A DNA stretch of 48,036 bases from NCBI GenBank assembly GCA_003167255.1, contig PMTR01000131.1, positions 1 to 48,036 of the forward strand, written 5' to 3'. Origin of the DNA: Bryobacterales bacterium (GTDB lineage Bacteria; Acidobacteriota; Terriglobia; Bryobacterales; Bryobacteraceae). A program made the translations under genes and the position numbers. Of this stretch, positions 6,804 to 36,435 are shown one piece after another (the first letter of the stretch is position 1; each line of letters begins with the position of its first letter). A model generated the notes under the pieces. That model had not been told where the DNA came from. It saw only the letters and a list, made by a program, of their open reading frames with translations, and ran no database searches.

Positions 6804-8243
6804 TCAAATGCAGACGGCGGCGGCCTTGCGCACGTCTTCCAGGACGCGTTCCATGTCGGACTTGGTCGTGCGGTAGTTCAGCACGCAGCCGCGCAGGGCG
6901 AAGCGGCCGCGCACCTTGGCGTTCGATAGATAAGTGCTTCCGGCGTGCTGCACTTCCACCAGCACGCGCTCGTTGAGCAAGTCCAGATCGCCCGTGAAAT
7001 TCTCGGGTTTGTAACGGAAACAGAAAACCGAGAGACCTACCGGCGCCAGCATTTCGAAATCGTCACTGACGTTGACCAGGCCTTGGAAATATTCCGCGCA
7101 AGCGATGTTCTCTTCGATGGCCCGGCTGAGCCGCTCCACACCGGCGTACTTAATGAGGAGCCAGAGGTCCAGGGCGCGGAAAGGACGGGTGAGTTCGGGG
7201 CCGTAATCCCAAAACGCGAAGGCCTCGTCGCGTTCCAGGCCGATGACGCGGGCGTATTCGGCGCCGTGCAGGAAGGCGGCGCGCGCGGCGGCGGGATCTT
7301 TGTAGAGCACGCAGCCGCAGCCCACGGGGAGGTAGAGCCACTTGTGGGGATCGAGGGTCACGGAATCGGCTTCGGCGATGCGCTCGAAGAGGTGCCAGGC
7401 GGAGGGCGCGAGCGCGGCGAAGCCTCCGTAGGCGGCATCCACGTGCAGCCAGAGGTCATGGCGGCGGGCGACATCGGCGAGCGCGCCCAGGGGATCGAAC
7501 GCGCCAGTGGCGGTGGTTCCGGCGCTGGCCACCACGCAGAACGGCAGATGGCCGGCCGCGAGATCGGCTTCGATGAGGCGCGACAGGTCGTCGGCATCCA
7601 TGCGCAATTGGTCGTCGGTCTTCACGAACCGCACATTGGCTTCGCCGATGCCGAGCATGCCGGCGGCTTTGGCGATTGAAAAATGGCCTTCTTCGGAGAC
7701 GTAGAGGCACATGCGCCGGCCGGCCGCGGCCATGCCTTCGCGCACCACGTTGACGGGCGCCTTGCGGCTGCGGGCGGCCGCGAGCGCCGCGAAGTTGGCC
7801 ATGGAGCCGCCGCTGGTCAGCAACCCCGCGGCCTCGGCCGGATACCCCAGCATTTGTTTGAGCCAATCGATGGTCAAATGCTCCACGTCCGTGCCGGTTG
7901 GCGCCGACCGCCAGCAGGTAGCGTTGATGTTGAGAGCAGCCGCCAACATGCTTCCGATGGCCGTGATGGCGGTCCCCGGCGAAGAGACATAGCCGAAGAA
8001 TCGAGGGTGCGCGTTGTGGCGGGCATACTCGCAAATCACATCGCGGAAGGTGCGGAGGAGTTCGTCGAAATCGGCGCCCTGTGGCGGCAGGCGCTCGTCG
8101 ATTTTGCGGCGAATCTCCTGGGAGGTGGTCGGGACCAGGACCGCCCGCTCCTCCAGGGTTTCATAGTAGGCGGCCAGAAAATCGACCGCCTGGCCGGCAA
8201 TGCGCCGGAATTCGTCGGCCGGGATGGCCAGCTTGTCGGTCAT
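6804..8243 (-). CDS. PLP-dependent group II decarboxylase (aromatic amino acid type)
   Basis: This 479-residue protein is full length for the pyridoxal-dependent decarboxylase family. HPRFFGYVSSPG is the substrate-pocket loop, LLTSGGSMANFAALAAAR binds cofactor phosphate, His187 in YVSEEGHFSI stacks on PLP, HVDAAYGG holds the Asp that contacts the pyridine nitrogen, and Lys301 in LDPHKWLYLPVGCG is the Schiff-base lysine. Family members decarboxylate L-DOPA, tryptophan, tyrosine or phenylalanine to amines. The exact substrate cannot be read from the sequence. It is a single gene, convergent with the GT2 gene and divergent from the sigma-factor operon. Confidence 0.9.
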   Translation of the reverse strand: MTDKLAIPADEFRRIAGQAVDFLAAYYETLEERAVLVPTTSQEIRRKIDERLPPQGADFDELLRTFRDVICEYARHNAHPRFFGYVSSPGTAITAIGSMLAAALNINATCWRSAPTGTDVEHLTIDWLKQMLGYPAEAAGLLTSGGSMANFAALAAARSRKAPVNVVREGMAAAGRRMCLYVSEEGHFSIAKAAGMLGIGEANVRFVKTDDQLRMDADDLSRLIEADLAAGHLPFCVVASAGTTATGAFDPLGALADVARRHDLWLHVDAAYGGFAALAPSAWHLFERIAEADSVTLDPHKWLYLPVGCGCVLYKDPAAARAAFLHGAEYARVIGLERDEAFAFWDYGPELTRPFRALDLWLLIKYAGVERLSRAIEENIACAEYFQGLVNVSDDFEMLAPVGLSVFCFRYKPENFTGDLDLLNERVLVEVQHAGSTYLSNAKVRGRFALRGCVLNYRTTKSDMERVLEDVRKAAAVCI

Positions 8244-24686: not shown

Positions 24687-24762
24687 GGGCCTGTGGCGCA
24701 GTTGGGAGCGCGCTTCCATGGCATGGAAGAGGTCGTCGGTTCGAACCCGACCAGGTCCACCA
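24687..24762 (+). tRNA. tRNA-Ala (anticodon GGC)
   Basis: This is a complete 76-base cloverleaf. The acceptor stem is GGGCCTG with CAGGTCC (one G-U pair), the D arm GCGC/GCGC, the anticodon stem CTTCC/GGAAG with loop ATGGCAT and anticodon GGC, the T arm GTCGG-TTCGAAC-CCGAC, and an encoded CCA at 24760-24762. It is intact although it abuts mobile DNA, as expected when an integrase targets the 3' end of a tRNA and restores it. Its 3' part is repeated at 26583 and 27348. Confidence 0.95.
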
Positions 24763-24766
24763 AAAC
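24718..24766 (+). repeat. att-like site 1 (within tRNA-Ala 3' end)
   Basis: The 49 bases from ATGGCATGGAAG through CCACCAAAAC are identical to 26583-26631. The repeat covers the anticodon loop, T arm, acceptor 3' strand and CCA plus four following bases. This is the usual attachment core for tyrosine-recombinase islands. By position it would be the left junction of the first cassette. Confidence 0.85.
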
Positions 24767-26582: not shown

Positions 26583-26631
26583 ATGGCATGGAAGAGGTCG
26601 TCGGTTCGAACCCGACCAGGTCCACCAAAAC
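26583..26631 (+). repeat. att-like site 2 (49-base exact copy of tRNA-Ala 3' part)
   Basis: It is identical to 24718-24766, from ATGGCATGG through CCACCAAAAC, but lacks the 5' half of the tRNA, so it is not a functional tRNA gene. It marks the right junction of cassette 1 and the left junction of cassette 2. VapC ends 16 bases further on. Confidence 0.88.
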
Positions 26632-26646
26632 TATCACTCAAAGAAC

Positions 26647-27033
26647 TCACGGCTGGATTAGAAGTAGTGGAATCTCACGAAAGTGAACATCCAGCGTGAG
26701 GAGTTGAAGCCCGTGCTCCAGCGCAACCGCTGCGATCCAGACATCATTGCGCGGAATGGGCCGGCCTTTCTTTCGCAAATATACGTCCACCTCCGCATAC
26801 CGCAGCGCGGTCTCTTCGGTTACGTTCAAGACGCGAACCGATGGCTTACTCAGGAATTGCGCCAACTGTGCCGTGTTCTCCGCCCAGCGATTTCCGGCAC
26901 GGAATCCGCTGTACAACTCGCCTAAAACAACGGCTGAAACAGCAACCGTCTCCGATCGCCGCATCACGTCGAGAATCGGTTGCTGTCCCCGCTGCAGTGC
27001 CGAGTAGGCCGACGTGTCGAGCAATACATTCAC
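26647..27033 (-). CDS. VapC-like PIN-domain toxin
   Basis: This 128-residue PIN-domain ribonuclease keeps all four acidic residues: Asp6 in MNVLLDTSAY, Glu39 in VVLGELYSG, Asp97 in IPRNDVWIAA and Asp115 in TLDVHF. They bind the metal ions used to cleave tRNA or rRNA. The start is a GTG at 27031-27033 that overlaps the antitoxin stop by four bases (GTGA). It lies between att sites 2 and 3 and forms the whole content of cassette 2 together with VapB. Confidence 0.9.
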   Translation of the reverse strand: MNVLLDTSAYSALQRGQQPILDVMRRSETVAVSAVVLGELYSGFRAGNRWAENTAQLAQFLSKPSVRVLNVTEETALRYAEVDVYLRKKGRPIPRNDVWIAAVALEHGLQLLTLDVHFREIPLLLIQP

Positions 27034-27278
27034 CCGGCTGACTCCCAGTCCGCGGGATCGACTTGACGCATCTCGACTAAGGCCGCGTCGAACGCATCAG
27101 CCTCCGCACTCGACCATGTTCCGCAGAACTCCTCAAAATCGGAGTTCTTGGCCGGCTTGCGCAGTTGTGCTTCGAGCAATCGAAGGGTGGCCTTATTGAG
27201 GCTGATTCCTTCGCGATGGCTTGTGTCAAGAATCGCCTTTTCGACTTCCTTAGGCAGGTTCCTGAGAGAGATCGTCAC
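27030..27278 (-). CDS. VapB-like antitoxin
   Basis: This protein is about 82 residues from the GTG at 27276-27278. The N-terminal ribbon-helix-helix is TISLRNLPKEVEKAILDTSH, then REGISLNKATLRLLEAQL, which binds the operator DNA. The acidic C-terminal tail (FEEFCGTWSSAEADAFDAAL) should wrap the VapC active site. A longer open frame starting at 27329 runs through the operator region and is not likely used. It overlaps vapC by four bases. Expression is probably autorepressed through the GATGCA repeats at 27301-27339. Confidence 0.86.
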   Translation of the reverse strand: MTISLRNLPKEVEKAILDTSHREGISLNKATLRLLEAQLRKPAKNSDFEEFCGTWSSAEADAFDAALVEMRQVDPADWESAG

Positions 27279-27300
27279 GAATCCACTGTAGCACAATAAC

Positions 27301-27339
27301 GATGCATAATGCATCATAGCTTGATGCAATCATGATGCA
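27301..27339 (-). promoter_or_regulatory. VapB operator-like GATGCA palindromes
   Basis: GATGCATAATGCATC at 27301-27315 is a perfect 15-base palindrome. Two further GATGCA copies follow at 27323 and 27334. On the minus strand TTGCAT and TATGCAT hexamers within it could serve as promoter elements. The position, 20-60 bases upstream of vapB, fits an autoregulatory operator. Confidence 0.65.
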
Positions 27340-27347
27340 GGGAGATC

Positions 27348-27408
27348 GGAGCGCGCTTCCATGGCATGGAAGAGGTCGTGAGTTCGAATCTCACCAGGTC
27401 CACCAAAC
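27348..27408 (+). repeat. att-like site 3 (diverged tRNA-Ala 3' part)
   Basis: GGAGCGCGCTTCC runs into the anticodon arm, T arm and CCA of tRNA-Ala. The T arm is GTGAG-TTCGAAT-CTCAC instead of GTCGG-TTCGAAC-CCGAC, so the stem is changed on both sides and still pairs. It therefore derives from a different tRNA-Ala gene rather than by decay. It is likely the left junction of the prophage. Confidence 0.82.
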
Positions 27409-28564: not shown

Positions 28565-28905
28565 AGCTGTAGCCCAACGACGATCTCATACTTGCAGACT
28601 TCGATCTTTAGCCAAGGACATGAGTGAACCACTGTTTCGAGCGCAAACAAATCGTCGTGTCGGGCCTTGGACAGCGAGCGCCGCGCGTGCGAACCGCCGA
28701 GTAAGAGGCATAGGTACTTCCTGGCGCGCGGCGGCGGCGCGTTGAAGAGTAGCGCAGTTTCGCTAGCGCCAGGCGCGAAAAGAGGCGGTCGGGCGGTCAG
28801 GCGCGCCCGAGGCGGCGGGTGCGCCACGGAGCCAACCCGGAGGCAGACGGCGCAACACGTGCCAACGGGGCGCGAAAGGGCGGCCAAGCCCGCCCCAGCA
28901 ACCAC
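28565..28905. other. Gene-free 341-base gap before the first methyltransferase
   Basis: It is GC-rich with several potential stems (GGCGCGCGGCGGCGGCGCG near 28720) but no supported gene. An open frame reaching back to 28819 merely extends the methyltransferase. It might contain the promoter of the methyltransferase operon; I see no clear -35/-10 pair. Confidence 0.4.
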
Positions 28906-30471
28906 ATGTCAACGCTTCCGGCGACCATAACGCCCGCCATGGCGCGGCGCATCGAAATCTGGCCGACCGCCCGGCTGGTGCCGTACGCAAGGAACGCGCG
29001 GACCCACTCACCGGAGCAGGTCGCGCAGATCGCGGCGTCCATCGTGGAGTTTGGATTCACCAATCCGATCCTGGTCGATTCCATGGACGGGATCATCGCC
29101 GGCCATGGCCGCCTCCTGGCTGCCCGCAAGTTGGGACTCGCGGAAGTTCCGGTGGTGGTGCTGGACCACCTCAGCGAGACTCAAAGGCGGGCATACATCA
29201 TCGCGGACAACCGGCTCGCCATGAATGCCGGATGGGACGAGAAGGTGCTGGCGCACGAACTCGCCGAACTGGAGCACGAGGGCATGGACCTCGCGTTGGT
29301 GGGCTTCAGCGACGCCGAACTGGAAGCGCTGCTCGCCGATAGCGAAGCGACGCCGCCGGATGTGCAAGATGAGGTCCCCGAGCCGCCGGCCCAGCCGGTA
29401 ACCCGGCCCGGAGATGTGTGGCTGATCGGAAGCCACCGCCTGATCTGCGGCGATTGTCGGGACTTCCATGTCGTCGAGAAACTAATGCATGGCGTGCGTG
29501 CGAACGTGTGCATCACGTCGCCGCCGTACGCCACCCAGCGCGAGTACGATTCCTCGAGCGGCTTCAAGCCGATCCCGCCGGAGGAGTACGCCGACTGGTA
29601 TCGGGATGTGGCCGCGAACATCGCGGCTGTCCTCGCGGAAGATGGCTCCTACTTCCTGAACATCAAGGAGCACGCCGACGACGGCGAGCGGAGTCTGTAC
29701 GTGAAGGATCTCGTCATCGCCCACCGGCGGCAGTGGGGATGGCGGTTTGTGGATGAGTTCTGCTGGCGGAAGACCGATAACGGCGTGCCTGGCGGATGGG
29801 GAAATCGATTCAAGAACGCCTGGGAGCCGGTGTTCCATTTTTGCCGCCAGCAGCAGATCAAATTTCGGCCCAAGGCGGTCGGGCACGCCTCGGACGACTG
29901 CTTCGATTACAGCCCCAACAATCCGAAGGCGACTTCCGGCAGCGGCTTGCTGGGCACCGGCCCGCGTGGTGCCGCAGCCGACGGCGGGAAGAACCAGAGC
30001 GCCTGGCAACGGAGTCGAAACAGCCTGTCCGATGATTCGGAAGGGCGCCATGCCGGCGTCGCGCGGCCTTCCAACGTCGTCGAAGTTCGCACGGAGTCGG
30101 GCCAGGGATCGCACTCCGCTCCCTTCCCGCGACCGCTCGTCGAGTTCTTCCTGCTGGCGTTCAGCGATGCAGGCGACGTGGTGTTCGACCCTTTCATGGG
30201 TTCCGGAACCACGATGGCCGCGGCGGCAGTGTTGGAGCGCGCTGGCTACGGCTGTGAAATCAGCCCTTCTTATTGCGATGTGATTCTGCGCCGGATCATG
30301 AACTTGACCGGCGAGACGGCGATGCTTGCGGAGACCGGAGAAACATTCACTGCGGCCGCGGAGTCGCGCGGCGTGCCCGTCGACCAGGCTTTGAACCCGA
30401 AGCGGCAGGACTCGCGGGCCATCAAACATCGCGGCCCGAATCCGTTCTACGGCAGCAAAAAGGCTTCCTGA
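28906..30471 (+). CDS. ParB-N-domain DNA methyltransferase, SPPY type
   Basis: This protein is about 521 residues from ATG 28906. Residues about 15-110 form a ParB/Srx-like N domain (LVPYARNARTHSPEQVAQIA, then DGIIAGHGRLLAARKLG). A beta-class methyltransferase follows: catalytic CITSPPYATQREYDS at about 203-217, a long target-recognition stretch, then the SAM site DPFMGSGTTMAAAA at about 428. The SPPY tetrad suggests N4-cytosine methylation, by family rule. No restriction endonuclease accompanies it, so it probably protects phage DNA or alters host expression. A paralogue lies at 31360. Confidence 0.88.
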   Translation: MSTLPATITPAMARRIEIWPTARLVPYARNARTHSPEQVAQIAASIVEFGFTNPILVDSMDGIIAGHGRLLAARKLGLAEVPVVVLDHLSETQRRAYIIADNRLAMNAGWDEKVLAHELAELEHEGMDLALVGFSDAELEALLADSEATPPDVQDEVPEPPAQPVTRPGDVWLIGSHRLICGDCRDFHVVEKLMHGVRANVCITSPPYATQREYDSSSGFKPIPPEEYADWYRDVAANIAAVLAEDGSYFLNIKEHADDGERSLYVKDLVIAHRRQWGWRFVDEFCWRKTDNGVPGGWGNRFKNAWEPVFHFCRQQQIKFRPKAVGHASDDCFDYSPNNPKATSGSGLLGTGPRGAAADGGKNQSAWQRSRNSLSDDSEGRHAGVARPSNVVEVRTESGQGSHSAPFPRPLVEFFLLAFSDAGDVVFDPFMGSGTTMAAAAVLERAGYGCEISPSYCDVILRRIMNLTGETAMLAETGETFTAAAESRGVPVDQALNPKRQDSRAIKHRGPNPFYGSKKAS

Positions 30472-30547
30472 TCTTTTCTCTTTGAGCGGCCCGGTGATCC
30501 GGGCTGCATGACCCAAACCGCAACTCCAACCGAAAGGAATTTCCCGT

Positions 30548-31063
30548 ATGGCCGAAACCAATCCCAATCTTTCCCCGTGCGTCACCCACCAGCCGAGTCT
30601 GTTGGGCGGCGCCGAAAACATCAAACTGCTCTTCGACGAAGAGCTGGACAACCGCCGCGAAAGCCTGGCGCGTCAGCGCGCCTGGGAAGCGGTCTCGCTG
30701 GACCTGGCGCAGACCGCCAGCCGGCGCGCGCAGAACGCGGCGACGATCGATCACGCCATCAACGCGGGCATCGTGTTGTCCGGCCAGGTCGGTACGACCG
30801 AGGGCCAGCAGACCGTGTCGCCCGCCGGCACGGCCGCCAGCGAAACCACCAAGGGCGCTGTCGCCGCCGCCGGAGCTGGCGAAGCGGTGAGCGCCGAGGC
30901 CGTCACCGCCAACGTCGCCAACCTGTTCACGTCGCTGACGCCGGTGATCGCGAGCGCTCTGGCCGCTGCGATCTCGCAGACGATCGCGGCCCTGGTGCCG
31001 GTGGTGGTGACCGCTTCGGGCGGTGCCTCCACCCCTTCCCAGACGCAGCCGAAGGCGGCGTAG
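30548..31063 (+). CDS. Prophage hypothetical protein, Ala-rich
   Basis: This 171-residue protein is preceded by GAAAGGAA. The N-terminal third is hydrophilic and helical (NIKLLFDEELDNRRESLARQ). The rest is Ala/Thr/Val-rich (AVAAAGAGEAVSAEAVTANV, then TPVIASALAAAISQTIAALV) and could form a hydrophobic helical bundle or membrane helices near residues 130-155. I do not recognise the family. A holin-like or virion-associated role is possible but unsupported. It lies between the two methyltransferase genes. Confidence 0.6.
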   Translation: MAETNPNLSPCVTHQPSLLGGAENIKLLFDEELDNRRESLARQRAWEAVSLDLAQTASRRAQNAATIDHAINAGIVLSGQVGTTEGQQTVSPAGTAASETTKGAVAAAGAGEAVSAEAVTANVANLFTSLTPVIASALAAAISQTIAALVPVVVTASGGASTPSQTQPKAA

Positions 31064-31128
31064 ATCTCCCCATACGGGAGATCCCCGCGCGAGGCGGCTG
31101 CGGAAGCTTCGGCTCCAAAGCCGCCTCG
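31063..31128. terminator. Two consecutive hairpins
   Basis: GATCTCCC (31063-31070) pairs with GGGAGATC (31076-31083). CGAGGCGGCT (31090-31099) pairs with AGCCGCCTCG (31119-31128) around a loop that itself contains GAAGCTTC; CGGGCTTTCTCG follows. They sit between two small genes and probably attenuate or end transcription. Confidence 0.5.
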
Positions 31129-31164
31129 ACGGGCTTTCTCGTGAGGACCAGAAAGGAAAAGACG

Positions 31165-31347
31165 ATGAACTTTTTGCAGATCATTCAAACGATTCTCAGC
31201 GTGGCTCCCTCCGGCATTCAGTTGACGCAGGAGGTGGTGGCGCTCGTCCAGGCCATCGAAGCCGCTTTCACCGCCGGCCAGACTCCGGCTTCTCACCAGC
31301 AGGCTGTGGCATCGGCTCTCGGCGCCCACCTTGCGAAGACGGCGTAA
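31165..31347 (+). CDS. Small prophage protein (60 residues)
   Basis: ATG 31165 is preceded by GAAAGGAAAAG at good spacing. The protein is helical and amphipathic (MNFLQIIQTILSVAPSGIQL, then VVALVQAIEAAFTAGQTPAS). It begins 36 bases after the double hairpin and ends 12 bases before the second methyltransferase gene. There is no recognised family. A structural or minor membrane role is conceivable; nothing in the sequence decides it. Confidence 0.6.
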   Translation: MNFLQIIQTILSVAPSGIQLTQEVVALVQAIEAAFTAGQTPASHQQAVASALGAHLAKTA

Positions 31348-31359
31348 CACCCAATCCAC

Positions 31360-32682
31360 ATGAAGATCGCGCAAGCAATCGCCACGCGACGGGAGAGTTC
31401 CGTGATCCCGGAGCGTGTCTTGCGCGATCTCGCGGTGGAACGCTGGCCCATCGACCGCCTCATTCCTTACGTTCGCAACGCGCGGACGCATACCGAGGAG
31501 CAGGTGGCGCAGGTCGCCGCCAGCATCATCGAGTTCGGCTGGACGAATCCAATTCTTGTCGGCGCGGACGGGGTGATCATTGCCGGGCACGCGCGCCTGC
31601 TTGCCGCCAGGAAGCTCGGGATGACGGAAGTCCCGGTCATCGTTCTCGACCACCTCTCCGAAACACAGCGGCGCGCGCTGGTGCTCGCTGACAACCGCCT
31701 GGCGCTGAGCGCCGGATGGGATGAGGAGATGTTGCGCGTCGAACTGGATTCACTCAAAGCGGACTTCTTCGACCTCGACCTGGTTGGCTTCACCGACGCC
31801 GAGTTGGAGGACTTGCTCCGCGACCCGGAGACGGCTAACGATGGACTCACCGATCCGGACGCGATCCCAAGCGATCAGGAGCAGGTCGTCACCGTCCTGG
31901 GGGACGTTTGGCTGCTGGGCCCGCACCGGTTGCTCTGCGGCGACGCGACTCAGACGGCCGACATCGAGAAGGTCCTTGCCGGCGGGTTGGCCGACATGGT
32001 TTTCACCGATCCGCCGTACAACGTCGCCTACGAAGGAAAGACATCGAAGAAGCTCACTATCGGCAACGACGCGCTTGGCGAGAAGTTCTATGACTTCCTG
32101 CGAGAGTCGTCGGCCAACATGCTGGCCGTCACGAAGGGCGCCATCTACATGTGCATGTCCTCGTCGGAGCTGCACACGCTGTTTCGCGCCTTCTCGGACG
32201 CCGGTGGCCACTGGTCGACCTTCGTGATCTGGGCCAAGCACCATTTCACGCTGGGCCGGTCGGACTACCAGCGGATGTACGAGCCGATCCTCTACGGCTG
32301 GCGCGACGGGACGCAGCACTTCTGGTGCGGCGACCGGAACCAGGGCGACGTGTGGTTCATCAAGCGGCCCATGGCGAACCTGGAACACCCGACCATGAAG
32401 CCAGTCGAGCTCGTTGAGCGCGCGCTTCGGAACAGCAGCAAGACCCGCGATACGATCCTCGATCCATTCGGCGGGTCCGGAACGACGCTGCTCGCGTGCG
32501 AGCGCACCAACCGCCAGGCGCGCGTGATGGAACTGGACCCGAAGTACTGCGACGTAGCGGTTCGTCGCTGGCAGGATTACACGGGCGACGTTGCGCGGCA
32601 CGCCGACTCCGGCCGCGCGTTCAACGATCTGGTTGGAGGGGAGTCTGGCGATGGAACAGAGCAACCACGCGCGGCTGGTTGA
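31360..32682 (+). CDS. ParB-N-domain DNA methyltransferase, DPPY type
   Basis: This protein has 440 residues. The ParB-like N domain (LIPYVRNARTHTEEQVAQVA, then GVIIAGHARLLAARKLGMTE) is closely similar to that of the enzyme at 28906. The catalytic motif is FTDPPYNVAYEGKTS at about 215-229, and the SAM site is DPFGGSGTTLLACERT at about 368. DPPY in this beta-class order suggests N6-adenine methylation. NPTMKP-like EHPTMKPVELVERAL is conserved in phage adenine methylases. The two enzymes share the N domain but differ in catalytic tetrad, so they probably modify different bases. Confidence 0.9.
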   Translation: MKIAQAIATRRESSVIPERVLRDLAVERWPIDRLIPYVRNARTHTEEQVAQVAASIIEFGWTNPILVGADGVIIAGHARLLAARKLGMTEVPVIVLDHLSETQRRALVLADNRLALSAGWDEEMLRVELDSLKADFFDLDLVGFTDAELEDLLRDPETANDGLTDPDAIPSDQEQVVTVLGDVWLLGPHRLLCGDATQTADIEKVLAGGLADMVFTDPPYNVAYEGKTSKKLTIGNDALGEKFYDFLRESSANMLAVTKGAIYMCMSSSELHTLFRAFSDAGGHWSTFVIWAKHHFTLGRSDYQRMYEPILYGWRDGTQHFWCGDRNQGDVWFIKRPMANLEHPTMKPVELVERALRNSSKTRDTILDPFGGSGTTLLACERTNRQARVMELDPKYCDVAVRRWQDYTGDVARHADSGRAFNDLVGGESGDGTEQPRAAG

Positions 32683-33521: not shown

Positions 33522-33962
33522 CTACTTCGCGATCCGGTACGTCCTCTCGCCCGCCTCGTTCTTGCCGGATTCGACCGTGAGGCCCATCTTCTTGGTGAGG
33601 TTGCCACTGATGAAGCCCCGGATCGAGTGCTTCTGCCAGTCGGTTGCCTTGGCGATCTCGGCCATGGTCGCGCCCTTGGGGCGGCGCAGGAGGTCCAGGA
33701 CGATGCTCTTTTTCGAGAATTCGCGCGGCACCACGGCCTCCTTCGCTTTGGGCGCCTTCTTGCTGGTGGCCTTCTCCTTGGCCTGCCTCTTCGACGCGAC
33801 CTTGGCTTGCTTGGTGGCTTTCTTCACGCCCTTGTTGGCCTTGGGCGCGCCCTTCTTCTGGCTGGCAGCCTTCTTCGAGGTGGCCTTCTCCGGCGCGACT
33901 TGCGCGCCCTGTTCCGCAACGGCGGCGGTTTCGGTGGTCTTGGTGGCTTCTGCGTTCGTCAT
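33522..33962 (-). CDS. DUF3489 protein with Lys/Ala-rich histone-like N terminus
   Basis: This protein is about 146 residues from the ATG at 33960-33962; an in-frame ATG at 33998 lies inside the shared 27-base element. Residues 20-85 are a run of Lys/Ala repeats (EKATSKKAASQKKGAPKANK, then GVKKATKQAKVASKRQAKEK) like histone H1 tails. The C-terminal domain (SIVLDLLRRPKGATMAEIAK, then ATDWQKHSIRGFISGNLTKK) is a winged-helix-like DUF3489. It probably binds DNA. A terminator-like hairpin follows the gene. Such genes are common in proteobacterial prophages. Confidence 0.8.
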   Translation of the reverse strand: MTNAEATKTTETAAVAEQGAQVAPEKATSKKAASQKKGAPKANKGVKKATKQAKVASKRQAKEKATSKKAPKAKEAVVPREFSKKSIVLDLLRRPKGATMAEIAKATDWQKHSIRGFISGNLTKKMGLTVESGKNEAGERTYRIAK

Positions 33963-33995
33963 CGGGGTGCTTTTCCTTTCGGCGGGTGATCCGCG

Positions 33996-34022
33996 CATGA
34001 CGATTCATCACTCCGGTGCGCC
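33996..34022 (-). promoter_or_regulatory. 27-base shared upstream element, copy 2
   Basis: It is an exact copy of 33412-33438, placed 34 bases upstream of the DUF3489 start and between that gene and the divergent small terminase gene. It probably contains the promoter for the leftward gene. Confidence 0.65.
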
Positions 34023-34055: not shown

Positions 34056-34544
34056 ATGGCGAACATGAGCCAGCGGGCGTATGCCCGGCAGCGCGGCGTT
34101 TCGGTGAGCACCGTCCAGAAGGCCATCGAGACAGGCCGCATCTCGACATTGCCCACCGGGCAAATCGACTCCGATGTGGCAGACGAAGAGTGGGCACGTA
34201 ACACGCAGACCCATGCGCCAGCGGTCGACCGGCGCGGCCAGGCAGACGAGGATGCCGAGGTCTTCGGCGCGTCGCAGTACACCAAGGCGCGGGCCGTGCG
34301 GGAGCACTACCAGGCGCGCCTCGCCAAGATCGAATACGAGGAACGAATAGCGCAGCTCGTTTCCGGGGATGAGGTCCAGGTAGCCGCTTACAACAAGTTC
34401 CGCCAGTTCCGCGATGCGATGCTCAATCTTCCCGACCGCCTCGCCGCGATGCTTGCCGCCGAGAGTGAAGCCGCCAAGGTGCATGAGGCGCTCACGCTTG
34501 AGATTCGGAAGGCCCTGAATGATTTCGCCGACGCTAACGGCTGA
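34056..34544 (+). CDS. Terminase small subunit (Nu1-like)
   Basis: This 162-residue protein has an N-terminal helix-turn-helix (MSQRAYARQRGVSVSTVQKA, then IETGRISTL), as in lambda Nu1, which recognises the cos site. A long helical C-terminal part (QYTKARAVREHYQARLAKIE, then LNLPDRLAAMLAAES) is typical of the phage small-terminase family that assembles as an oligomer with the large subunit. ATG 34056 or 34065 may be used. It overlaps the large-subunit start by 26 bases. It starts the rightward late operon. Confidence 0.82.
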   Translation: MANMSQRAYARQRGVSVSTVQKAIETGRISTLPTGQIDSDVADEEWARNTQTHAPAVDRRGQADEDAEVFGASQYTKARAVREHYQARLAKIEYEERIAQLVSGDEVQVAAYNKFRQFRDAMLNLPDRLAAMLAAESEAAKVHEALTLEIRKALNDFADANG

Positions 34545-36435
34545 GCAAATCTATTCTGCCGCCGCCGCGGCCGGCGCGCGCCCGGACCCGCTGCTCACCA
34601 TTTCGCAGTGGGCCGACCGCTATCGCTGGCTCTCGCAACGGGCGTCGGCTGAGCACGGTCGCTGGCGCACGGAGCGCACGCCTTATCTGCGCGAGATCAT
34701 GGACTGCCTCTCGCCCATGTCGCCCATCGAGCGCACGGTGTTCATGAAGGGCGCGCAGATCGGCGGCACCGAGTGCGGCAACAACTGGATGGGCTACATC
34801 ATCCACCAGGCGCCGGGGCCGATGATGGCGGTGCAGCCCACCGTCGAGATGGCGAAGCGCAACTCGAAACAGCGCATCGACCCGCTGATCGAGGAGTCGG
34901 AGGTGCTGCGGAAGCTGGTCCGCGATCCACGGTCGCGCGATTCCGGCAACACGGTTCTATCGAAGGACTTTCCGGGCGGCGTGCTGGTGATGACCGGTGC
35001 GAACAGCGCGGTCGGCCTGCGGTCGATGGCCGCGCGGTATCTGTTCCTGGACGAAGTGGACGCCTACCCCGGAGATGTGGAAGGCGAGGGCGACCCGATC
35101 ACGCTGGCGATGGCGCGCACGCGCACGTTCGCCAGGCGGAAGGTGTTCCTCTGCTCGACGCCCAAGATCACCGGCATGAGCCGGATCGAGGCGGCGTATG
35201 AAGAGAGCGATCGGCGCAAGTATTTCGTGCCGTGCCCGACTTGCCGCGATTTCCAGGTCCTGAAATTCGCGCAACTCCGGTGGCCGAAGGGCAATCCGCA
35301 GGGGGCGGTTTACGTTTGCGAGCATTGCGGCCAGGAGATCCAGAACCACCAGAAGCACTGGATGCTGGCTCGCGGCGAGTGGCGCGCGGGCACGAAGGGA
35401 GATGGCAAGACGGCGGGCTTCCACATCTCCAGCCTCTACAGCCCGGTTGGCTGGTTCTCGTGGGGCGACGCAGCCAAACAGTTCGAGCAGGCCCAGAAGA
35501 ACTCCTCGCTGCTGCAGGTATTCGTCAACACCGTGCTGGGCGAGACGTGGACCCAACTCGGCGAGGCTCCGGATTGGCAGAAGCTCTACGACCGCCGCGA
35601 GGACTACAAGGTCGGGCTGGTCCCGCGCGGCGGTCTGTTTCTTACGGCGGGCGCGGACGTTCAGAAGGACCGTATCGAAGTCGAGATCGCCGCCTGGGGC
35701 CGTGGGAAGGAGTCGTGGTCGGTCGATTACCGGGTGTTCGAAGGCGACACGTCGCGCCCGGCTGTGTGGGAGAAACTCACCGACCTGCTGAACGAAACCT
35801 TCACGACCGCATCGGGGCTGGAGTTGCCCATCATGCAACTCGCGATCGACTCCGGATTTGCCACCACCGAGGTCTACCATTGGGCGCGGCGGCAGGGCGG
35901 GCGCGTACTGGTGATCAAGGGCGATTCACGCGCACCAGCGCTGCTCGGGGCGGCTTCGCCCGTGGACGTGGGTCCGTTGGGCGCCAAAATCAAACGCGGT
36001 ATTCGCGTGTGGCCGGTCAACTCCGGCATGGCGAAGGAAGAGTTGTACCGTTGGCTGCGCCTTGATCGGCCCACAGACGAGGACCTTGCCAGCGGTGTGC
36101 CGTTTCCAGCAGGCTACTGCCACTTTCCGAAGTACAGCGAGGAGTACTTCAAGCAGATCACTGCCGAGCAGTTGGTGACGAAGCTGGTCAAAGGCTACCG
36201 GCGGCATGAATGGCAGAAGATGCGCGAGCGCAACGAGGCGCTCGATTGCCGCGTGTATGCGCGCGCGGCGGCAGGCCGGATCGGCATTGATCGTTTCCAG
36301 GAGAAGCACTGGGCCGATTTCGAGCGCCGGGTGGGCGCCCCTCCGGTAAAAGAAGTGAAACCAGCGCAGCAACCACGGCGCACGGAAGGGGCGCCGCCTG
36401 CGCGTAACCGCGTGCGCTTCAGGATGGATCTCTAA
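34519..36435 (+). CDS. Terminase large subunit (lambda gpA family)
   Basis: This 638-residue packaging ATPase/nuclease is the length expected for gpA-type (PF05876) enzymes. The ATP site is FMKGAQIGGTECGNNWMGY (about 75-93). Walker B with catalytic Glu is ARYLFLDEVDAYPGD (about 172-186). Two Cys pairs, CPTC near 239 and CEHC near 267, form a zinc knuckle. A C-terminal nuclease region includes LPIMQLAIDSGFATTEVYHW. It packages DNA into the procapsid, cutting at cos or a similar site. Its stop shares one base with the gpW start. Confidence 0.93.
   Translation: MISPTLTAEQIYSAAAAAGARPDPLLTISQWADRYRWLSQRASAEHGRWRTERTPYLREIMDCLSPMSPIERTVFMKGAQIGGTECGNNWMGYIIHQAPGPMMAVQPTVEMAKRNSKQRIDPLIEESEVLRKLVRDPRSRDSGNTVLSKDFPGGVLVMTGANSAVGLRSMAARYLFLDEVDAYPGDVEGEGDPITLAMARTRTFARRKVFLCSTPKITGMSRIEAAYEESDRRKYFVPCPTCRDFQVLKFAQLRWPKGNPQGAVYVCEHCGQEIQNHQKHWMLARGEWRAGTKGDGKTAGFHISSLYSPVGWFSWGDAAKQFEQAQKNSSLLQVFVNTVLGETWTQLGEAPDWQKLYDRREDYKVGLVPRGGLFLTAGADVQKDRIEVEIAAWGRGKESWSVDYRVFEGDTSRPAVWEKLTDLLNETFTTASGLELPIMQLAIDSGFATTEVYHWARRQGGRVLVIKGDSRAPALLGAASPVDVGPLGAKIKRGIRVWPVNSGMAKEELYRWLRLDRPTDEDLASGVPFPAGYCHFPKYSEEYFKQITAEQLVTKLVKGYRRHEWQKMRERNEALDCRVYARAAAGRIGIDRFQEKHWADFERRVGAPPVKEVKPAQQPRRTEGAPPARNRVRFRMDL

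Follow-up and report, generated by a model that had tools for sequence, protein, structure and literature searches.

Methyltransferases fused to a ParB-like domain are frequent in phages. Paracoccus prophages have 36 such proteins, every one encoded upstream of terminase genes, and the arrangement has been named the ParB-Tls locus (PMC6536676). The same loci also hold 21 5-methylcytosine (m5C) enzymes, and an earlier proposal, reported in that paper, is that the ParB of these loci directs modification during packaging. M.BceSVII (BCE_0392), from a prophage of Bacillus cereus ATCC 10987, is described as a promiscuous N6-methyladenine (m6A) enzyme that is active when cloned but inactive in the genome (PMC3526280), and its ParB domain is described in PMC5512222. 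The N6-methyldeoxyadenosine (m6dA) made by BCE_0392 was detected by liquid chromatography–mass spectrometry, and the next locus number, BCE_0393, is a prophage multi-specific m5C enzyme (PMC3459991). The subject here is a pair of ParB-methyltransferase genes, M1 and M2, in a prophage of a Bryobacterales bacterium. The pair lies in a stretch of 48,036 nucleotides (contig PMTR01000131.1 of assembly GCA_003167255.1; 'the window'), which is part of a 7.35-Mb genome in 200 contigs. One member of the pair is predicted to modify cytosine and the other adenine. The pair is real, conserved and recurrent, and is found in phages of distantly related bacteria.

Two ParB-methyltransferases with different catalytic motifs

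The genes and the motifs that define them are as follows.

28906..30471, + strand: M1, ParB_N fused to an SPPY amino-methyltransferase, 521 amino acids, predicted N4-cytosine (open reading frame, ORF; PF01555, PF02195; profile; Foldseek)
28948..29337, + strand: ParB-like N domain of M1, residues about 15-144 (Pfam 32-93; PHROG ParB families 15-156; Noc and Spo0J matches)
29101..29112, + strand: GHGR, the GxxR (P-motif) of the ParB fold in M1 (G66 H67 G68 R69 invariant in 28 SPPY proteins)
29515..29529, + strand: TSPPY, motif IV of M1 (T204-Y208 invariant in 28 of 28)
30187..30207, + strand: DPFMGSG, motif I of M1, after motif IV (beta-class order)
31360..32682, + strand: M2, ParB_N fused to a DPPY amino-methyltransferase, 440 amino acids, predicted N6-adenine (ORF; PF01555; phrog_498 4.7e-156; profile; Foldseek)
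31585..31596, + strand: GHAR, the GxxR motif of the ParB fold in M2 (G76 H77 R79 invariant in 28 DPPY proteins)
32005..32019, + strand: TDPPY, motif IV of M2
32461..32481, + strand: DPFGGSG, motif I of M2

A preliminary description of the window had reported two ParB-domain methyltransferases 0.9 kb apart, with SPPY in one and DPPY in the other. Both ORFs are indeed intact and on the same strand with a gap of 888 nt, the ParB-domain motifs quoted for them are present in both, and the tetrads are as described (an in-frame GTG at 28819 is an alternative start for M1 and would give 550 amino acids). The N6_N4_Mtase family (PF01555) is matched above the Pfam cut-off by M1 (E 1.5e-35) and M2 (E 1.2e-25) and, with motif IV ahead of motif I, both are beta-class amino-methyltransferases. 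Against a cut-off of 26.3 bits for ParB_N (PF02195), M1 scores 28.2 and M2, just below it, 26.0. The two proteins are 52% identical over 246 amino acids spanning the ParB domain and motif IV, and 41% identical over 79 amino acids in the motif X-I region.

Recurrence of the pair

Viral contigs were scanned with M1, M2, gp24 of Acidithiobacillus phage AcaML1 and a further SPPY protein, and one genome collection was scanned as well. One SPPY and one DPPY ParB-methyltransferase, on the same strand and with the SPPY gene first, were found at 215 loci (the window, AcaML1 and contig C31 counted), a recurrence of the same order that is beyond chance. The tetrads are SPPY/DPPY in 212 and SPPY/DPPF in three. 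These loci are not independent, since some contigs recur between scans; 185 pairs were complete enough to compare, 80 are non-redundant at <90% identity, and 28 of these went into the profiles described below. By scan, the pair was present at 64 of 80 loci matched by M1, 15 of 28 in the genome scan and 75 of 80 for the further SPPY protein, with 17 of 79 new loci added by M2 and 41 of 79 by gp24. Acidobacterial titles are carried by 26 of the 28 M1-matching loci in the genome collection, and the same genome as the window has the pair on a second contig (C31), whose M2 is 73% identical to that of the window.

DPPY proteins often stand alone, and SPPY proteins rarely do so outside the more distant part of one set. 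In the M2-query set, 41 of 79 loci had 2 kb or more upstream of the DPPY gene and yet no SPPY gene. SPPY genes that stood alone, 1.5 kb or more of downstream sequence containing no second ParB ORF, numbered 1/80, 1/28, 13/79 and 0/80 in the four SPPY-query sets; the thirteen are more distant SPPY ParB-methyltransferase loci (L244-L264). One further genome, of the same family as the window's, has six near-full-length M1-like genes on six contigs, which suggests several related prophages.

The gene order depends on the lineage. It is reversed, with DPPY first, on a Roseicitreum plasmid and a Paracoccus plasmid (L446), and in 72 of 80 viral loci matched by the Roseicitreum SPPY protein the DPPY gene is first, on the same strand. 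The other eight comprise seven in which the locus ends within 1.1 kb of a lone SPPY gene, and one with DPPY and a partial second ORF. The impression that SPPY is always first was query-dependent and had to be abandoned.

Altogether 287 pairs were sorted into three sets: 86 of the window's lineage, 129 other SPPY-first pairs and 72 DPPY-first pairs. (The two SPPY-first lineages are classes by motif spacing or, for the comparison of identities by region below, by a sequence motif; they do not denote hosts. For the overlap and neighbourhood counts, the set of 129 also took in pairs without a measurable spacing.) The second gene starts within the stop codon of the first, a 4-nt overlap, in 189 of the 287 pairs (28/86, 98/129 and 63/72 by set). 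In the window the two genes are spaced. An intervening ORF is present in 25 of the 86 loci of the window's lineage, the window counted; here it encodes 171 amino acids without a Pfam or PHROG family match (30548..31063, + strand).

Predicted target bases

The tetrad SPPY tends to mark cytosine enzymes and DPPY adenine enzymes. Profiles were made from 28 SPPY-family proteins (A1) and 28 DPPY-family proteins (A2). With A1, the N4-cytosine enzyme M.PvuII scored 86 bits over 272 profile positions (197-468), which is the whole methyltransferase domain, and rotifer N4CMT scored 74; the adenine enzymes M.BceJIV, MboIIA, CcrM and M1.HpyAVI gave 57, 56, 54 and 42. (The top match, at 92 bits, was the Thermus enzyme 2zie, to which no base is assigned.) A2 gave M1.HpyAVI 68, CcrM 63, 2zie 62, M.BceJIV 61 and rotifer N4CMT 40, and M.PvuII, with 28, was the last of 22.

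AlphaFold2 models had a mean predicted local distance difference test (pLDDT) score of 71 for M1 and 75 for M2. In a Foldseek comparison M.PvuII ranked first for the M1 model with an adenine enzyme second, and CcrM then M1.HpyAVI were on top for the M2 model, with M.PvuII at rank 40; the separation of the chemistries is less sharp than that given by the profiles. On motif, profile and fold together, M1 very probably forms N4-methylcytosine (m4C) and M2 m6A. The two different chemistries that had been proposed from the tetrads have in this way gained evidence beyond the tetrad.

The ParB-like domain

Profile matches to Noc and ParB chains were obtained for both families, ending at profile position 84-102 for the M1 family and 91-128 for the M2 family. 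The GxxR motif, in the form GH.R, is kept in 286 of 287 SPPY members and 284 of 287 DPPY members. Pfam reported neither a helix-turn-helix (HTH) nor a C-terminal dimerisation domain in M1 or M2, and they are not partition ParB proteins by that measure. It had been proposed that the two enzymes share a DNA-targeting domain. That exceeds the evidence because only the N-terminal part of ParB is matched and HTH and dimerisation domains were undetected by Pfam; the shared domain should not be taken as one that targets DNA. A later survey treats the ParB fold as a nucleoside triphosphate (NTP)-binding module and, in the ParB-fold proteins mutated there, loss of the GxxR arginine abolished nucleotide binding (PMC12704722). 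Given the conserved GxxR, the ParB domains of M1 and M2 may bind nucleotide.

Origin of the pair

'Nearly superimposable', as the two ParB domains had been called, is a fair description, but the likeness is a family trait and no peculiarity of the partners. Mean ParB identity within loci versus between loci was 0.556 versus 0.555 for 56 pairs (1884 of 5000 permutations as high) and 0.567 versus 0.562 for 80 pairs (50 of 2000). By lineage it was 0.583 versus 0.574 in the window's (0 of 2000, 47 pairs) and 0.544 versus 0.541 in the other (362 of 2000, 33 pairs). Concerted evolution at the level of the locus is ruled out as a strong effect, the within-locus excess being at most 1 percentage point. 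As SPPY and DPPY ParB domains are almost as alike between loci, there has been no strong recent homogenisation. Partner distances correlate over the 80 pairs (Mantel r 0.70 for ParB with ParB and 0.53 for methyltransferase with methyltransferase domains), as expected for genes inherited together.

In a tree built on 78 ParB domains, those of both proteins of the DPPY-first lineage fall into one clade (26 rows, support 100/98) and the two domains of locus L269 are sisters (100/95); four of the eight lone DPPY rows, together with some other rows whose domains were incomplete, had dropped out. A single clade of all paired SPPY ParB domains, as opposed to paired DPPY ones, is rejected by the approximately unbiased (AU) test (p-AU 4e-67, the groups having been chosen once a quick tree had been inspected). 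It follows that, on more than one occasion, either a pair came together with related ParB domains or the ParB domains of its members became alike. The DPPY methyltransferase domains form one clade across lineages (100/99, 72 rows, with a program warning of long branches; the rows exclude L257, which has a long branch, and some of the DPPY-first lineage).

The two halves differ in how far they have diverged. Between the two SPPY-first classes (28 pairs, 16 + 12), SPPY enzymes are 61% identical in the ParB domain, 31% in the motif IV-VIII region, 23% in the target recognition domain (TRD) and 43% in the X-I region. For the DPPY enzymes of the same pairs the values are 64%, 59%, 68% and 71%. The methyltransferase domain of M1 is 32-37% identical to stand-alone plasmid and jumbo-phage enzymes, and SPPY methyltransferases of the window's type group with stand-alone enzymes (100/97, again with a long-branch warning). 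A swap of the SPPY methyltransferase domain is suggested by identity and tree but is not established, as a single clade of ParB-fused SPPY enzymes is not rejected (p-AU 0.146). No association was detected between the motif-spacing classes of SPPY and DPPY partners (6/9 and 19/12, Fisher p 0.22, 46 of 47 pairs).

The terminase neighbourhood

The right part of the window is a prophage with small and large terminase subunits, a lambda-type portal, an S49 protease and capsid E; there is also a weak tail-protein match. The terminase small subunit gene starts 3.6 kb past the end of M1 and 1.4 kb past the end of M2. Three genes downstream of the pair are the following.

33522..33998, - strand: DUF3489 protein, often found near the pair and in this case encoded on the strand opposite to it (PF11994 4.8e-24)
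34056..34544, + strand: terminase small subunit (phrog_57 2.4e-29)
34519..36435, + strand: terminase large subunit, GpA type (PF05876 and PF20454)

Enough downstream sequence (4.5 kb or more) was available at 102 pair loci. In 88 of them a relative of one of three terminase large subunits follows on the same strand, at a median distance of 1.6, 2.6 and 2.9 kb in the three sets. A ParB-methyltransferase upstream of the terminase large subunit is what defines the ParB-Tls locus, and the window and these 88 loci have it. A DUF3489 relative, irrespective of strand and place, is present in 247 of the 287 pair loci (75/86, 103/129 and 69/72).

Function of the pair

In the favoured reading a temperate phage carries M1 and M2 as a solitary module of two DNA-modifying enzymes, within a ParB-terminase (packaging) locus and made when the packaging genes are on. 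M1 would methylate cytosine N4 and M2 adenine N6, and phage DNA would be marked at both bases, across many sequence contexts, either ahead of packaging or in the course of it. In the next host, DNA marked in this way would withstand a range of restriction enzymes. Each enzyme's ParB N domain would act as an NTP-dependent switch or as an assembly module, tying the two enzymes to one common state or partner, and would not itself read DNA sequence. That the pair is such a two-base self-protection module, with ParB domains that gate or assemble the enzymes, is given about an even chance. It is favoured because modification of both adenine and cytosine occurs near packaging genes elsewhere, at BCE_0392/BCE_0393 and in the Paracoccus ParB-Tls loci. 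The relaxed specificity in it is suggested by analogy with M.BceSVII. Protection from restriction would fit the phage context and the lack of a visible endonuclease. (The absence of an endonuclease had been asserted before, and none of the window proteins scanned with Pfam or PADLOC, which were 10, 9 and 10 proteins and part of the ORFs, matched a restriction endonuclease family.)

Several facts weigh against self-protection of this kind. When BCE_0392 was expressed in E. coli, plasmid from the cells was not resistant to any of 28 listed restriction enzymes; the m6A signal of the enzyme was weak, and an earlier report of no activity is cited (all PMC3459991). Of 28 purified ParB-fold proteins 17 bound no nucleotide, and no N6_N4 fusion is named among the binders in the part of the survey drawn on (PMC12704722). 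The TRD of M1 is poorly modelled, with residues 326-389 below pLDDT 50, and relaxed specificity therefore cannot be read from the structure. A protein of Aurantimonas phage AmM-1 is counted among GANTC enzymes (PMC6536676), and AmM-1 carries a ParB-DPPY protein; if the two are the same protein, some DPPY relatives are sequence-specific (GANTC enzymes are described with NPPY/F/W; PMC5537653). Finally, pairing is common and not obligatory, as the 41 lone DPPY and 15 lone SPPY loci attest.

Coordinated anti-restriction or packaging had been the role first suggested for the pair. Conservation and the proximity of terminase suit such a role; coordination on one site lacks support, given identities between lineages of 23-31% for the cytosine enzyme and 59-68% for the adenine enzyme. 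That difference also bears on the idea that the pair serves two halves of one asymmetric site, each enzyme methylating one strand as in Type IIS systems. Tandem genes, different target bases and the frequent 4-nt overlap would agree with it, and m4C pairs of such a kind exist (BceSIII; PMC3526280). Against this, SPPY partners retain 31% (IV-VIII) and 23% (TRD) identity between lineages where DPPY partners retain 59% and 68% (28 pairs), their spacing classes are not associated (Fisher p 0.22), and no endonuclease was seen among the ORFs scanned. The asymmetric site is improbable. Modification might otherwise be a packaging mark, with the ParB domains bringing the enzymes to the packaging site or terminase and methylation serving cutting and loading instead of protection. 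The large subunit gene downstream on the same strand at 88 of 102 loci, the role in packaging-time modification proposed for ParB in ParB-Tls loci (reported in PMC6536676) and, in AcaML1, a terminase-small-subunit-like gene directly upstream of the pair besides the annotated one all lean that way. The HTH that would find a site was not detected by Pfam, and no cos or pac site was identified, though none was looked for. A packaging mark is doubtful.

A more elaborate reading of the pair, also on the doubtful side, is a single nucleotide-switched heteromeric machine in which the related ParB domains jointly close around DNA or dock on terminase; it includes methylation of the packaged genome on adenine and cytosine in one NTP-gated step, with an exchangeable cytosine half and a near-constant adenine half. 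A regulatory use, in which the pair alters host or prophage gene expression during lysogeny, has a precedent in a prophage methyltransferase with such an effect (PMC12435837). The pair adjoins packaging genes, however, and two promiscuous prophage m6A enzymes are inactive in their hosts' genomes (PMC3526280), and this use is unlikely. It is very unlikely that the fused ParB domains are nucleases that nick the DNA of host or rivals, which would make each protein an enzyme of both modification and nicking: nicking has been reported for BCE_0392 (cited in PMC5512222 and PMC3459991), but in the later survey the fold is regarded as a module that binds NTP (PMC12704722).

Other features of the prophage region

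An intact tRNA-Ala(GGC) gene at 24687-24762 is followed by two partial copies. The copy at 27348-27407 is 92% identical to 24705-24764, and part of it is matched at 89% identity by the copy at 26583-26629. They look like nested attachment sites left by serial integrations, and the left end of the prophage is perhaps near 27.35 kb. Between the two 3′ copies, at 26647-27329 on the - strand, are a PIN-domain gene and an upstream small ORF without a Pfam match, a possible toxin and antitoxin. Promoter-like sites numbered 0 where 0.9 were expected, and terminator-like sites 7 where 5.4 were expected.

Relation to known systems

ParB-methyltransferases upstream of terminase are already known, and so is a promiscuous ParB-adenine enzyme. 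The recurrent pairing of an adenine with a cytosine enzyme is apparently undescribed: no account of SPPY/DPPY pairing was found in the open-licence literature on ParB and phage methyltransferases that formed the scope here (subscription papers were mostly outside it), and the literature found on gut phages, Serratia phages and C. difficile had nothing on ParB-fused methyltransferases. The main text of the pamA paper is without mention of ParB (PMC12435837). A recurrent pair whose genes mostly overlap, and whose ParB domains are in some lineages each other's closest kin, is a compact test system. With it, ParB gating or assembly of DNA methylation, and joint protection of both base types of a phage, become testable.

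In the Paracoccus ParB-Tls loci, as with M1 and M2, ParB is fused to an m6A/m4C methyltransferase upstream of terminase; the split into SPPY and DPPY partners with related ParB domains was not found described in the part of that report drawn on (PMC6536676). M.BceSVII, as described, resembles M2 in being a prophage ParB-adenine methyltransferase, and its locus resembles the window pair in that an adenine enzyme is next to a cytosine enzyme by locus number. BCE_0393 is unlike M1, being an m5C enzyme for which no ParB domain is mentioned in the parts of PMC3526280 and PMC3459991 that deal with it. M.PvuII and stand-alone PvuII-like m4C enzymes share the methyltransferase domain of M1. The five compared all have SPPY and, at 285-292 amino acids, are too short to hold the ParB domain that M1 has.

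Among phages, Wolbachia phage WO has proteins that align with more than 90% of M2 at 46-48% identity, and an N-terminal ParB-like domain is reported for the WO methylases met1 and met2 (PMC3089641). The gene directly upstream of the AcaML1 pair is gp23 (6921-7454), terminase-small-subunit-like (phrog_57) and additional to the one annotated next to the large subunit gene. The AcaML1 pair itself, gp24 and gp25, is like that of the window, with SPPY then DPPY and terminase downstream, though the AcaML1 genes overlap by 4 nt; the methyltransferase domain of gp24 is about 30% identical to that of M1, and gp25 is 63% identical to M2.

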